34,264 nt of DNA from assembly GCA_903842505.1 (NCBI GenBank), contig CAIMMI010000248.1, positions 1 to 34,264 on the forward strand, given 5' to 3'. A program made the position numbers and the translations under genes. This document shows positions 3,263 through 34,007 of this stretch, piece by piece. Within the stretch, counting starts at the first letter, position 1. Every line of letters starts with the position of its first letter. The notes below the pieces were generated by a model that ran no database searches, had not been told where the DNA came from, and saw nothing but the letters and a program-made list of their open reading frames with translations. This stretch comes from an uncultured Verrucomicrobiota bacterium (lineage in GTDB: Bacteria; Verrucomicrobiota; Verrucomicrobiia; Limisphaerales; UBA9464).

Positions 3263-3307
3263 CTCGGGTCCTGCCTCGTGACTTCGGCGGTTACGCCCTT
3301 TCCGGGG

Positions 3308-5414: not shown

Positions 5415-5470
5415 CCTTGAAACTTGAAACTTGGGACTCCCAAACGGCTCGTGAGGACACTCGCCCCACC
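5415..5470 (+). repeat. Compound intergenic repeat, family C tract joined to a family B arm
   Basis: CCTTGAAACTTGAAAC heptamer tract ending TTGGGACTCC (5415-5440), four bases, then a family B right arm CGGCTCGTGAGG...CTCGCCCCACC (5445-5470). An inverted version of the same compound lies at 11975-12022. The tract reads in frame into dgt and is the source of a spurious N-terminal extension there. The other bases of the 5308-5537 gap include a short family D-like piece near 5400. Confidence 0.8.
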
Positions 5471-11815: not shown

Positions 11816-11916
11816 TCGTACTCGAAGCGATGGGTTGGCGTGTGAGGGTTGGGAGTTTGGCGGTGTTCGAGTACGAGTACCGCCCTGCGGGCTGAGTACG
11901 AGTACGAGTACGAGGG
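11816..11916 (+). repeat. Family A REP-like hairpin with GAGTAC hexamers and inverted half-copy
   Basis: At 11866-11916 GAGTAC hexamers flank a GC hairpin, GTAC-C-GCCC-TGC-GGGC-TGA-GTAC (11877-11899). An inverted fragment TCGTACTCGAA (11816-11826) is the exact complement of TTCGAGTACGA at 11866-11876. Almost the same core occurs at 28777-28810 and 33844-33891. Confidence 0.85.
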
Positions 11917-11931: not shown

Positions 11932-12000
11932 CGGTTCGACGGAGTCTCGCCCCACCCCGCTGGAATCAACCCTTGGTGGGGCGAGTGTCCTCACGAGCCG
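11932..12000 (+). repeat. Family B arms in tail-to-tail order
   Basis: Left arm, reverse orientation, at 11932-11956 (CGGTTCGACGGAGTC through CTCGCCCCACC); 18-base spacer; right arm, reverse orientation, at 11975-12000 (GGTGGGGCGAGTGTCC through CACGAGCCG). In the full element at 26177-26236 the arms are joined the other way round, by their CGAGCCG ends. Confidence 0.8.
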
Positions 12001-12004
12001 TGGA

Positions 12005-12090
12005 GGAGTCCCAGGTTTCAAGATTCGGCCTTGAAACTTGAAACTTCAAACTTGGGACTTCCGCCCGGCTCGACGGAGTCTCGCCCAACG
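12005..12090 (+). repeat. Inverted family C pair continuing into a family B arm
   Basis: GGAGTCCCAGGTTTCAAG (12005-12022) is an inverted family C tract. After six bases a direct tract CCTTGAAACTTGAAAC... TTGGGACTTCC (12029-12062) runs into a family B left arm CGGCTCGACGGAGTCTCGCC (12066-12090). The 62 bases 12029-12090 differ from 19114-19175 at only three positions by eye. Confidence 0.85.
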
Positions 12091-13054: not shown

Positions 13055-13252
13055 GGTGGGGCGAGACTCTGTCGAGCCGTTTCAGGATCGGCTCGTGGGG
13101 ACACTCCCCGGCGTCGATGGTGAAGCGCCGCGTGGGGGCACGCGGCCTACAAGAGGGGGTTGAACCCGCCCGCCCGCTGGCCGGTCCTCGCATGTAAGAC
13201 TCTCGCCCCACCGGAGGGTCAAAACGGGAATCTTCAAACTTGGAACTCCCCG
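13055..13252 (+). repeat. Repeat cluster: family B element, family G unit, family B/C remnants
   Basis: A nearly full family B element at 13055-13110 (GGTGGGGCGAGACTC... CGAGCCGTTTCAGGATCGGC, with a degenerate right end), a family G unit at 13129-13152 (GTGGGGGCACGCGGCCTAC), a partial B arm GACTCTCGCCCCACC (13198-13212), and a short C tract CTTCAAACTTGGAACTCC (13231-13248). Together they fill the 239-bp gap between the AraC and lactonase genes. Confidence 0.75.
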
Positions 13253-18870: not shown

Positions 18871-19273
18871 GAAGCACGCAGCAGGGTCCGGGTGCGAACC
18901 ACGCCGGGTTTGGTGGGTTGGCCACAACCGCGTTGCGGTTGGGAGGATCGAGGGGCCGGCACCCGGGGTTGGCCTCGTGCCTCGACCAACCTTGGGCCAG
19001 GGGGCTCAACGCCGTTGGCTTTGGTGGAGGGCTTCGAGGCCGCGGGACTGCTTTTGTTAGGGGCCGGGGTGATTCGCGGTTCGAGTACGAGGAGGGAAGC
19101 GGCTCGACGGAGTCCTTGAAACTTGAAACTTCAAACTCGGGACTTCCGCCCGGCTCGACGGAGTCTCGCCCCACCGGCCTTGAAACTTGAATCTGAGCAC
19201 TTGGAACTCCGTTCCAGATTCAGGAAGGTTTGAATTGTCGATACCCGAAGAGCGTAGAGGTTGGCGCGAGTTC
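18871..19273. repeat. 403-bp intergenic repeat cluster (families I, A, B, C)
   Basis: Contents in order: a family I-like stretch with GTTGGCCACAACCGCGTTGC (about 18917-19045); a family A half-copy TTCGAGTACGA (19080-19090); a B-arm fragment CGGCTCGACGGAGTCC (19100-19115); a compound C+B element (19114-19175) almost identical to 12029-12090; and another C tract, CCTTGAAACTTGAATC... TTGGAACTCC (19178-19210). No gene is seen. Confidence 0.8.
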
Positions 19274-23595: not shown

Positions 23596-23611
23596 GGGGG
23601 GAGGGGGAGGT

Positions 23612-23790
23612 GGAAGTTTTCAGATTCAAGTTTGAAGTGGGATGTAGCCGACGAGGTGACGAGGCGGGGTTTGAGGACAGCCTCGTTACCTCGACTGCTA
23701 CTCGGACAACAGCCTCCTGACTTTGGCTGCTACCCGGCCTAGTGCGTCACTCAGCAATCCTGTTCATCCTGTCATCCTGTCATCCTATCC
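23612..23790. repeat. Repeat cluster upstream of the S9 peptidase (families C, H, F)
   Basis: An inverted family C tract GATTCAAGTTTGAAGTGG (23623-23640). Family H inverted pair: TGTAGCCGACGAGGTGACGA (23643 on) and GCCTCGTTACCTCGACTGCT (23680 on), about 14 bases apart, able to form a hairpin. Family F inverted copy: TCCTGTTCATCCTGTCATCC and on to 23790. The rest of the 278-bp gap, up to the peptidase start, holds nothing further I can name. Confidence 0.75.
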
Positions 23791-23873
23791 AAACATCCCG
23801 CTCCTATCCCAAACCGGGTTTGAGAGGTTCGGTCTTTGCAGGGGAAGGCGTGGGCGGGCAGGGTTGCTCCGGA

Positions 23874-26174
23874 ATGAAGTCATGGTCACTGGGAATCCGG
23901 GACGGGATCTGGGTCGTGGGGTTGGCTTGGTGCCTGGCGTTGGGGGCAGGGCATCGGGTCGGGGCAGCGGAGGGGGCGGCGACGAATGCGCCGGCTTCGC
24001 CGAAGCTGACCTTGCAACGGATCTTCGGCGACGGTGAGTTCGGCGGCGATTCGTTCGGTGGGCGTTGGTTGGACGAGGGGCATCGGTACACGACGTTCGA
24101 GTCGACCACGAACGGCGTGGGTGGTCGTGACCTCGTCGCGCACGATGCGGCGACCGGCGCGAAGGAGGTGCTGGTGGCCTCGTCGGACTTCATCCCGAAG
24201 GGTGAGTCGGGTCCCTTGTCCGTCGAAGGGCACTGGTGGTCGAAGGATCGTTCCCGGTTGTTGATCTACACGCAGTCGAAGCGCGTGTGGCGGACGAACA
24301 GCCGCGGGGATTACTGGGTGCTGGACCGGACGGCGCGGGAGTTGAGGAAGCTGGGCGGCGATGCGCAGCCTTCGAGCCTGATGTTCGCGCGGTTTTCCCC
24401 GGATGGAACGCGCGTGGCGTATGTCCGCGAGCGGAACCTGTATGTCGAGGACGTCCGCACGCACGAGATCATCGCGCTGACGAAGAGCACGTCGCCGACG
24501 ATCATCAACGGCACATTCGACTGGGTTTACGAGGAGGAGTTCGGGTTGCGGGATGGGTTCCGCTGGAGTCCGGATGGGAAGCGGATCGCGTACTGGCAAC
24601 TGGACACGACAGGTCTGCGTGAGGTGCCGTTGGTCGACAATGTCGACGGGCTTTATCCGAAGGTGCAATGGATCCCGTATCCGAAGGTTGGGGAGCAGAA
24701 CGCGTCGTGCCGGGTGGGCGTGGTGTCGGCCTCGGGCGGTGAGACCCGATGGATGGAGGTGGCCGGGGATCCCCGAAACCAATACCTGTTCGACCTCGCG
24801 TGGGTGGAGTCGACGGGGGACGTGCTGCTGCAGCAGTTGAATCGGTTGCAGAATACGAATCACATCCTGCTGGCGGATCCGACGTCGGGGAAGGTGTCGA
24901 CCCTGGCGGTGGACCGGGATGATGCATGGGTGGACGGGCATCAGAACCTCAAGTGGCTGGACGAGGGGAAGCGGCTGCTGTTCTGGAGCCAGCGCGATGG
25001 GTGGCGGCATCTGCACACGGTGGACCGCAAGGGGCGCAAGGTCCGGACGCTGACCTCCGGGGAATTCGACGTGACCGACCTGGTGCACGCGGATCCCGAC
25101 CAGGATCTCGTGTATTTCACGGCATCGCCGACGAATGCCACCCAGCGATACCTGTATCGGGTGCGATCGAACGGGCACGGAATGGAACGGGTGACTCCCG
25201 GGGGGCAGCCTGGGACGCATGGGTACCAGATTTCGGCGGACGGGAAGTTCGCGGTGCACACGTACTCGCGGTTCCACGAGCCGCCGGTGATCGAGATGGT
25301 CACCTTGCCGGATCACAAGGTGGTGCGGGTGCTGGTGGAGAACCAGAAGCTGAAGGAAAAGCTGGCGACGTTGGACCAGCCGAAGACCGAGTTCCTGAAG
25401 GTGCCGTTGACGAACGGCGTGGTGATGGACGCGTGGATGATCCGTCCCCCGGACTTTGATCCGGCGCGGAAGTACCCGCTGGTGGTCTACGTTTATGGCG
25501 AGCCGGCTGGGACAACGGTGACGGACTCCTGGGGTGGGAAGTCGTACCTGTGGCACGTGATGTTGGCGCAGCAGGGATATGTGGTGATGAGCTTCGACAA
25601 CCGCGGCACCAGCGCACCGCGGGGGCGGGCGTGGCAGAAGGCCATCTACCGGCAGGTCGGAATCCTGGCACCGCAGGAACAGGCACTGGCGATCCAGCAG
25701 GTTTTGGCAACGCAGCCTTCCATTGATCCGGATCGGATCGGGGTCTGGGGCTGGAGCGGTGGGGGTTCGATGACGTTGAACGCGATGTTCAAGTTTCCGG
25801 ACCTGTACAAGGTCGGGATCTCGATCGCGTCGGTGCCGAACCAACGCTTCTACGACACGATCTATCAGGAGCGGTACATGGGGTTGCCGGCAGACAACGT
25901 CGACGGCTTCCGGAACGGTTCACCGATCCACTTCGCGAGCCAGTTGAAGGGGGAGTTGCTGTTGATCCACGGGACGGGTGACGACAACTGCCACTATCAG
26001 GGTGCCGAAGCGTTGGTGGACGAGTTGATCCGGCACAACCGGCCGTTCCGGTTGATGGCGTATCCGAACCGTTCCCACAGCATCAGCGAGGGAACGGGAA
26101 CGACACTGCACCTGCGTGGATTGATGACGTCGTTCCTGAACGAGAAGTTGCCGGCGGGTGGGTTGCCGCGGTGA
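23874..26174 (+). CDS. Exported S9 family serine peptidase (dipeptidyl peptidase IV type)
   Basis: A 766-residue protein: signal peptide (GIWVVGLAWCLALGAG), an N-terminal eight-bladed propeller (DPPIV_N), then an alpha/beta hydrolase domain. The propeller carries DWVYEEEFG (Glu pair near residues 219-221), which anchors the substrate N terminus in DPP IV. The catalytic triad is visible as Ser628 in GWSGGG (GWSYGG in mammalian DPP IV), Asp703 in HGTGDDNCHYQ, and His735 in YPNRSHSIS. It probably removes dipeptides from proline- or alanine-containing peptides in the periplasm. ATG 23874 is the only start giving a proper signal peptide. It ends two bases before a 60-bp inverted repeat. Confidence 0.93.
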   Translation: MKSWSLGIRDGIWVVGLAWCLALGAGHRVGAAEGAATNAPASPKLTLQRIFGDGEFGGDSFGGRWLDEGHRYTTFESTTNGVGGRDLVAHDAATGAKEVLVASSDFIPKGESGPLSVEGHWWSKDRSRLLIYTQSKRVWRTNSRGDYWVLDRTARELRKLGGDAQPSSLMFARFSPDGTRVAYVRERNLYVEDVRTHEIIALTKSTSPTIINGTFDWVYEEEFGLRDGFRWSPDGKRIAYWQLDTTGLREVPLVDNVDGLYPKVQWIPYPKVGEQNASCRVGVVSASGGETRWMEVAGDPRNQYLFDLAWVESTGDVLLQQLNRLQNTNHILLADPTSGKVSTLAVDRDDAWVDGHQNLKWLDEGKRLLFWSQRDGWRHLHTVDRKGRKVRTLTSGEFDVTDLVHADPDQDLVYFTASPTNATQRYLYRVRSNGHGMERVTPGGQPGTHGYQISADGKFAVHTYSRFHEPPVIEMVTLPDHKVVRVLVENQKLKEKLATLDQPKTEFLKVPLTNGVVMDAWMIRPPDFDPARKYPLVVYVYGEPAGTTVTDSWGGKSYLWHVMLAQQGYVVMSFDNRGTSAPRGRAWQKAIYRQVGILAPQEQALAIQQVLATQPSIDPDRIGVWGWSGGGSMTLNAMFKFPDLYKVGISIASVPNQRFYDTIYQERYMGLPADNVDGFRNGSPIHFASQLKGELLLIHGTGDDNCHYQGAEALVDELIRHNRPFRLMAYPNRSHSISEGTGTTLHLRGLMTSFLNEKLPAGGLPR

Positions 26175-26176
26175 GA

Positions 26177-26236
26177 GGTGGGGCGAGACTCCGTCGAGCC
26201 GTTTCAGGATCGGCTCGTGAGGACACTCGCGCCACC
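26177..26236 (+). repeat. Full family B element, 60-bp near-palindrome
   Basis: Starts GGTGGGGCGAG and ends CTCGCGCCACC; inner stem CGAGCCG (26195-26201) and CGGCTCG (26211-26217) with loop TTTCAGGAT. The two arms differ between the outer and inner stems (ACTCCGT against TGTCCTCA), giving an imperfect hairpin. It begins two bases after the peptidase stop, so it could stop transcription or protect the mRNA 3' end (inference). Confidence 0.85.
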
Positions 26237-26283: not shown

Positions 26284-26381
26284 CAGTTGCCAGTTTCCAG
26301 ATGCCGGTTCCCAGTTCTGGAATCTGGCGACTGGCGACTGGGAACTCCCTCTGGACCCGCCTCGTTACCTCGTCGGCTACC
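26284..26381. repeat. Family D inverted pair followed by a family H unit
   Basis: CAGTTGCCAGTTTCCAGATG (26284 on) is followed by a direct tract TCTGGAATCTGGCGACTGGC... GGGAACTCCC (ending 26348); the two are partly complementary. GCCTCGTTACCTCGTCGGCT (26359 on) is a family H unit like 23680-23701. Confidence 0.7.
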
Positions 26382-27657: not shown

Positions 27658-27682
27658 CGGTTCAACGGAGTATCGCTCCCCC
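27658..27682 (+). repeat. Degenerate family B arm beside truncated prfC
   Basis: CGGTTCAACGGAGTATCGCT followed by CCCCC matches the left arm CGGTTCGACGGAGTCTCGCCCC with several changes. It lies 45 bases beyond the stop codon of the release factor gene. Confidence 0.6.
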
Positions 27683-28638: not shown

Positions 28639-28845
28639 TTTCGAGTTTCAAGCCCACCGGAGGCGGGATGGAGTGGGAGGGCACCCTGTTGGGCCCGCGC
28701 GTAAGGAGTGGGTACTCCTACTCGTACTCAGGCCAATGGGTGGGTTGAGGCGAGGGTGGGAGCCGCATTGGGATCAAGTACGAGTACCGCCCTGCGGGCT
28801 GAGTACGAGTGGGCTTGAAACTTGAAACTGAAAACTTGGGACTCT
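28639..28845. repeat. Repeat cluster upstream of hemX-like gene (families C and A)
   Basis: An inverted C fragment TTTCGAGTTTCAAGCCC (28639-28655); an inverted A half-copy GTACTCCTACTCGTACTCAG (28712-28734); a full A element with its GC hairpin (28777-28810); and a direct C tract CTTGAAACTTGAAACTGAAA... GGGACTC (28814-28844). Both families occur here as inverted pairs. The 316-bp gap holds no gene. Confidence 0.85.
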
Positions 28846-28894
28846 ACCGGCCGACAGGCTTGCCGGGCGGCGGTCCCGTCGTAACGTTTGGGGC

Positions 28895-33724: not shown

Positions 33725-34007
33725 TGAGAGTTTGAAGGTTCAAGATTCAAGTTGGAAGCAGTGGGAGGGCGCGGAAGGGGCAGGTTGTCCCGCAGAGGCG
33801 CGGAGGCGCAGAGGGGGCGGGGAGGAGAGGGGATTGTCGGGGATCGAGTACGAGTACCGCCCTGCGGGCTGAGTACGAGTAGGAGTACGAACGGGGGCCG
33901 CGAAGGGGCGGATCGGCTCGTGGGACACTCGCCCCACCGTCCGAGGAGGAGTTGAGGGGTGGCACGCAACGGGAATTTGGAGCGGGGGTACTCGTACTCG
34001 TACTCGA
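33725..34007. repeat. Repeat cluster flanking the RAYT gene (families C, E, A, B)
   Basis: In order: an inverted C-like tract TTTGAAGGTTCAAGATTC (33731-33748); an E-like tract GCAGAGGCGCGGAGGCGCAG (33792-33811); a full family A element (33844-33891) with the GC hairpin and GAGTAC hexamers; a family B right arm CGGCTCGTGGGACACTC... CCCCACC (33914-33938); and an inverted A half-copy GTACTCGTACTCGTACTCGA (33988-34007). The transposase start codon lies 122 bases beyond the last of these. The remaining part of the 503-bp gap holds no gene. Confidence 0.85.

Follow-up and report, generated by a model that had tools for sequence, protein, structure and literature searches.

GTGG-tagged REP hairpins with opposed GA dinucleotides: a REPIN-like element in a Verrucomicrobiota genome and its relationship to RAYT genes

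The GTAG REP superfamily (Di Nocera et al., 2013; PMC3733652), which includes the GTGG-tagged GTAG-20 of Opitutus terrae, consists of short stem-loops that carry a GTRG tag at the foot, are present in many intergenic copies, form inverted heterodimers with structured spacers and are associated with REP-associated tyrosine transposases (RAYTs); Verrucomicrobia and Planctomycetes are named as hosts. The REPINs of Pseudomonas fluorescens SBW25 (PMC3116915), which number in the hundreds, are inverted REP doublets with a spacer of defined length that appear to behave as a unit; in these, the pairs form within one REP group, a RAYT is present elsewhere, and singlets are clearly decayed. In the BIMEs of E. 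coli, two related REP types (y and z) alternate in inverted orientation, and TnpA_REP (4ER8) depends on the GTAG tag as well as on a mismatch bulge that is conserved within the stem (PMC8266576). So-called ‘double foot’ REPs, which can be explained by central deletion, are described in PMC6006769, as are REP insertions that lie in frame within tnpAREP genes.

The element discussed here occupies positions 26177–26236 (plus strand) of a 34,264-nt stretch of DNA (hereafter the window) from a fragmented, 95.6% complete, 5.2-Mb MAG of the order Limisphaerales (Verrucomicrobiota). It is very probably a REPIN (BIME), i.e., a non-autonomous miniature element composed of two inverted GTGG-tagged REP hairpins, denoted A and B, with the tags facing outward. 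The element shares the foot tag, short stem-loop, numerous intergenic copies, inverted heterodimers with structured spacers and RAYT association with the GTAG REP superfamily, and is set apart from it by the opposed GA dinucleotides between the two 3-bp stems of the A and B hairpins and by a heptad-repeat core. Accordingly, the family can be classified as REP/REPIN (BIME-like) within the GTAG/GTGG superfamily and appears to be new, yet could be identical to one already reported in PMC3733652, the comparison having been made by description. Unlike in SBW25, A–B heterodimers predominate, the cognate RAYT was not found in the assembly and the decay of singlets is weak, whereas compared to E. coli, the AA-GC bulge is replaced by GA opposite GA and the GTAG tag by GTGG.

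Architecture of the element and of its arms

The 60-bp near-palindrome described in the earlier note, with 11-bp outer arms containing one mismatch and a 7-bp inner stem, is indeed present at 26177–26236 and, judged from the sequence, can be read as a short-form REPIN in which an A arm (26177–26201, plus strand; GGTGGGGCGAGACTCCGTCGAGCCG) and a 9-nt loop are followed by the reverse complement of a B arm (26211–26236, minus strand; GGTGGGGCGAGTGTCCTCACGAGCCG). Both assignments draw on folding and covariation in addition to the sequence. Each arm corresponds to a GTGG-tagged hairpin of the form GGC-[GA]-NNN-loop-NNN-[GA]-GCC, for which a DNA folding program yields two stems separated by an internal loop with GA opposite GA. 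The arms have in common the framework GGTGG-GGC-GA-...-GA-GCC-G and differ in the inner stem, which is GAC-TCC-GTC in A and GTG-TCCT-CAC in B; the first outer-stem triplet of B is (C/G)GC, with one outer-stem mismatch in this copy. The earlier note had overlooked this folding of each arm into a hairpin of its own, as well as the long form of the element, which is the commoner one. When folded as RNA, the complete elements are strongly structured, with z −5.3 for the 60-nt short form and −81.5 kcal/mol (z −9.6) for the whole long form; a single arm was no more stable than its shuffles.

The structure of the arm was assessed by covariation in a set of 30 distinct arms collected from RAYT flanks and from relatives. 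In this alignment, 97.2% of the cells are paired, with 27 two-sided changes compared to 8.2 in shuffled data (0/500), under a search pattern that determined most of the outer framework and also most of the first inner pair, so that only the two innermost pairs were a free test; in three of the rows (the G053 arms), the 5-nt tag, which is unpaired, and the final base were supplied rather than read, the paired columns being as found. Structures slid by 1–3 columns gave at most 39% pairing. The two innermost pairs covary (GC, AU, CG and UA at one; CG and GC at the other), i.e., the stem-loop is maintained through compensatory changes at both. The GA dinucleotides are nearly invariant on both sides, in a search pattern that also favours GA. 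In general, GA opposite GA gives sheared pairs that are stable. The GTRG tag is located at the 5′ foot of the arm, and GTGG, GTAG and GGAG are found as foot tags among the relatives. A and B have different inner stems, yet each preserves its own, which points to arms that fold separately rather than as one long palindrome.

Copies, arrangements and genomic setting

A scan of the whole genome (5.21 Mb, 362 contigs) for copies with conserved boundaries, as suggested in the earlier note, produced 368 matches to the framework GGCGAGN{6,9}CGAGCC compared to 7 for the reversed control, and the boundaries are fixed; an A-like pattern with ≤2 mismatches gave 271 matches compared to 15 for the control. 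In an 866-kb sample, which also is the source of the pair statistics given below and is not fully random in that some contigs were taken for holding matches, 67 A and 59 B arms were detected at ≤2 errors, the reversed patterns giving none in either case. Given these counts and the genome-wide 368 to 7, chance is excluded. Of the arms in the sample, every one of the 71 exact copies and 123 of the 126 at ≤2 errors are intergenic, according to a crude codon-usage gene caller that assigns 74% of the bases to coding regions.

An intergenic location would also be expected of immobile functional sites under selection, such as bidirectional terminators, mRNA-end stabilisers or nucleoid-protein sites. 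The same explanation could account for the setting of 26177–26236, which begins 3 nt past the stop codon of a DPPIV/S9 peptidase gene (23742–26174) and lies between predicted genes that the crude caller places in convergent orientation, and for the strong RNA folding of the 60-nt form (z −5.3, as above). We nevertheless consider such a role quite unlikely, given that 26177–26236 contains neither a T tract nor a terminator-like site, that convergent gaps are not favoured (arms are found in 10/62 convergent, 32/210 tandem and 21/78 divergent gaps), that the copy number within a single genus ranges from near background to 368, and that orthologues of the peptidase gene in four congeners end without an element after the stop codon. 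The latter genes also bear on the search for empty sites proposed in the earlier note: the element is absent at this point in all four, but the downstream contexts differ, so that none represents a clean empty site. An Rfam search of the window returned no match.

Among 58 relatives, the arms are abundant in G000 (the genome of the window), G003, G009, G016, G043, G050, G053 and G055, and phylum-wide, in G147 (219 vs 11 in the control), G069, G175, G181 and G164; in most of the other genomes surveyed, the counts are at background. The patchy distribution within the genus fits what mobile elements would give. The arms of the phylum relative G147 have 4-bp inner stems (GCTC/GAGC and GCAC/GTGC) and include some inverted pairs.

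Within 200 bp of each other, neighbouring arms form 54 pairs, a 3.7-fold excess over the 14.7 obtained by random intergenic placement (maximum 24 in 300 randomisations); 48 of the 54 are A–B pairs and 48 of the 54 are inverted (p about 1e-9 each). The commonest arrangement is the long form, with the tags outward and a spacer mostly of 67–87 nt. The short form, to which 26177–26236 belongs, likewise has the tags outward and shows a core-to-core spacer of 11–12 nt (7 cases), and the tags-inward form has a spacer of 26–29 nt in most of its 12 cases. The long spacer is an inverted repeat of 7-nt units with the consensus GGAGTTTGAAGTTTTCAGTTTCAAGTTTGAAGC...CCTTGAAACTTGAATCTTGAAACTTGGGACTCC and a period-7 self-match of 0.73 in both halves. 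This heptad core is a partly independent repeat because 67 of the 113 CTTGAAA-type heptad tracts in the sample (8 in the reversed control) lie within 60 bp of an arm. The short form is probably a ‘double foot’ derivative of the long form that arose by central deletion, and the facing and solo arms would result from neighbouring insertions and decay. Homodimers are found in other genomes (G055, L273 and L264), and heterodimers are therefore not obligatory. The REPIN signature of conserved doublets and decayed singlets is weak here: the mean number of errors in singlet and paired arms is, respectively, 1.12 and 0.71 for A and 0.94 and 0.74 for B, with equal fractions of exact arms.

Intergenic tracts of 7-nt units (CTTGAAA and also CTGGCGA/GCCAGAT) are common, whether inside REP elements or apart from them, and in the window are located at 12029–12065, 19114–19150, 23598–23637 and 28814–28856, among other positions. 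Some long-form elements (in L078, L090, L092, L106 and L125) are bordered, beyond the GTGG tags, by an additional inverted repeat, CTTGACACTGCCCCC... / ...GGGGGCAGTGTCAAGATGCGCC.

The inverted ends of about 25 bp, the internal core and the multiple copies are compatible with a MITE of a DDE transposon, in which the arms would be terminal inverted repeats that are cut as double-stranded DNA and leave target-site duplications. This possibility is highly improbable: in 35 elements, no target duplication of 2–9 bp was detected above the level of shuffled flanks, the internal hairpin of each arm is kept by compensatory changes, and the arms flank HUH/Tyr RAYT genes (see below).

All the separate arm copies listed in the earlier note are present in the window, with the one at 27658–27682 being doubtful, and several belong to larger structures. 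The near-full copy at 13055–13110 (plus strand) is a second short form with a truncated B tag end, and the right arm at 33914–33938 (minus strand) is, as proposed, a solo B arm, with the 3-nt loop TCC. The supposedly lone left arm at 12066–12090, on the other hand, pairs with an inverted B arm (11975–12000) across a heptad-repeat core (12001–12065) in a long-form REPIN on the minus strand (11975–12090). Both arms indeed are found within 11932–12000, but what had been taken for a reversed order is the junction of this long element with another A arm (11932–11956, minus strand), whose tag points inward, toward that of the B arm at 11975, across an 18-nt linker. The arms at 19151–19175 (A) and 5445–5470 (B) are present but each carries half of the same core (19114–19150 and 5416–5444, respectively), and 19114–19175 and 5416–5470, both on the minus strand, are therefore half elements. 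The sequence at 27658–27682 (minus strand) resembles a degenerate A arm and is considered doubtful because its core shows four differences from A and the reversed control also often scores at 4 errors (163 matches for the A pattern vs 70 in the 866-kb sample).

A second REP family, GTAGCCGACGAGGTAACGAGGC with the partner GTAGCCGACGACGTGAGGAGGC, is found in the window at 23644–23668, 26356–26380, 3273–3294 and 23680–23733; it also forms inverted pairs, with CTGG-type heptad spacers, and is represented by 19 copies at ≤2 substitutions in 866 kb (0 in the reversed control). In addition, a 44-nt repeat that contains GAGTACGAGTACCGCCCTGCGGGCTGAGTACGAGTA, a period-6 tract around a CGCCCTGCGGGC motif, is located at 11863–11906, 28770–28813 and 33840–33883.

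RAYT genes and the arms that flank them

RAYT genes with tandem-GA arms on both sides were identified in G003 (same genus), G043 (an order-mate) and G028. Used as the query against bacterial genomes, that RAYT yielded 80 loci, of which 56 were examined; arms are present on both sides within 250 bp in 16 of these 56, and the arm density is 2.27/kb within 250 bp of the RAYT genes compared to 0.108/kb beyond 1 kb. The exact A core flanks the RAYT in L265, L273 and L275, and the exact 26-nt B arm does so in L284. The L265 locus is a clean unit in which 30-nt inverted ends surround a 156-aa RAYT that matches E. coli TnpA_REP (4ER8; E 8e-8) and contains the HUH motif DHLH and the Y motif YVQENP. In related bacteria, identical arms flank transposase-like genes, and the elements can therefore be regarded as, most likely, miniature mobile elements that belong to a known kind but show a newly described hairpin design. 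The view of the earlier note that the arms resemble BIME-type REP mosaics or miniature elements is thus supported by the copy number, intergenic location, fixed boundaries and inverted A–B pairing in this genome and by the RAYT flanking elsewhere, to which sequence comparison adds the covarying inner stems.

A tree of 36 RAYTs shows clustering of the tandem-GA label (5 changes vs 12.2 when shuffled, 0/500). Seven RAYTs with GTGG-tagged tandem-GA arms are united in a 99/99 clade that contains, as separate supported groups, two GAC-stem loci and three GCG-stem loci; the stem type tracks the RAYT clade. The RAYT relatives outside the tandem-GA groups mostly have other GTAG/GTGG-tagged repeats.

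In the 95.6%-complete, fragmented assembly of the window's own genome, no RAYT of the cognate clade was detected at E 1e-12, and because of this, the family must be considered an orphan in the assembly unless its RAYT falls within a sequence gap. Several other candidates were rejected as partners. The C245 RAYT (L156/L196, G000 C245:108–869) is flanked by its own repeat, GTAGGCCCGGGTGCCCTCACCCGGC, a different REP; the C309 RAYT has a single B arm 185 bp upstream, the only arm near a RAYT in this genome, which was judged to be within chance; and two 360-aa Y1 transposases (C116 and C21), with no arms close by, are not likely partners.

The missing RAYT, together with the many half elements and solo arms, would be accounted for if the RAYT that spread the family had since been lost from the lineage, leaving the copies to decay passively. 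We regard this as possible but less likely than not: about half of the arms still are exact to the consensus, which suggests recent spread, and high-copy repeats often break short-read assemblies, so that the assembly may lack a RAYT gene that lies between such repeats.

Proposed mechanism and implications

For the role of the GA/GA loop, and for cleavage and movement, we infer the following scheme. An arm that becomes single-stranded, for example in the lagging-strand template, would fold into its own hairpin; the RAYT, an HUH/Tyr single-strand endonuclease of the TnpA_REP type, would read the GTGG tag along with the interrupted stem, cleave beside it and join the excised A...B unit to DNA at another place. 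By analogy with E. coli TnpA_REP, for which both the tag and the mismatch bulge are necessary (PMC8266576), the likely recognition marks on single-stranded DNA are the GTGG tag and the GA/GA loop; for a GTGG tag, the Marinomonas enzyme treated in PMC8266576 would, again by analogy, predict cleavage at CC or CA.

Under a broader proposal, to which we give about even chances, a Verrucomicrobiota clade of RAYTs, with relatives in Planctomycetota, recognises a hairpin marked by a symmetric GA/GA internal loop that separates two very short stems, the inner stem sequence and the RAYT co-diverge, and in the present genome, these hairpins combine with an inverted core of 7-nt repeats into composite REPINs of about 135 bp. 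The family extends the REP-RAYT partnership, so far studied mostly in Gammaproteobacteria, to a well-defined clade in Verrucomicrobiota and Planctomycetota. The natural variants, in which the stem is altered while the tag and the GA/GA loop are kept, provide a ready test set for the choice of hairpin by RAYTs, and the family also makes it possible to test whether several hundred REPIN arms can be maintained as a population in the absence of their transposase.
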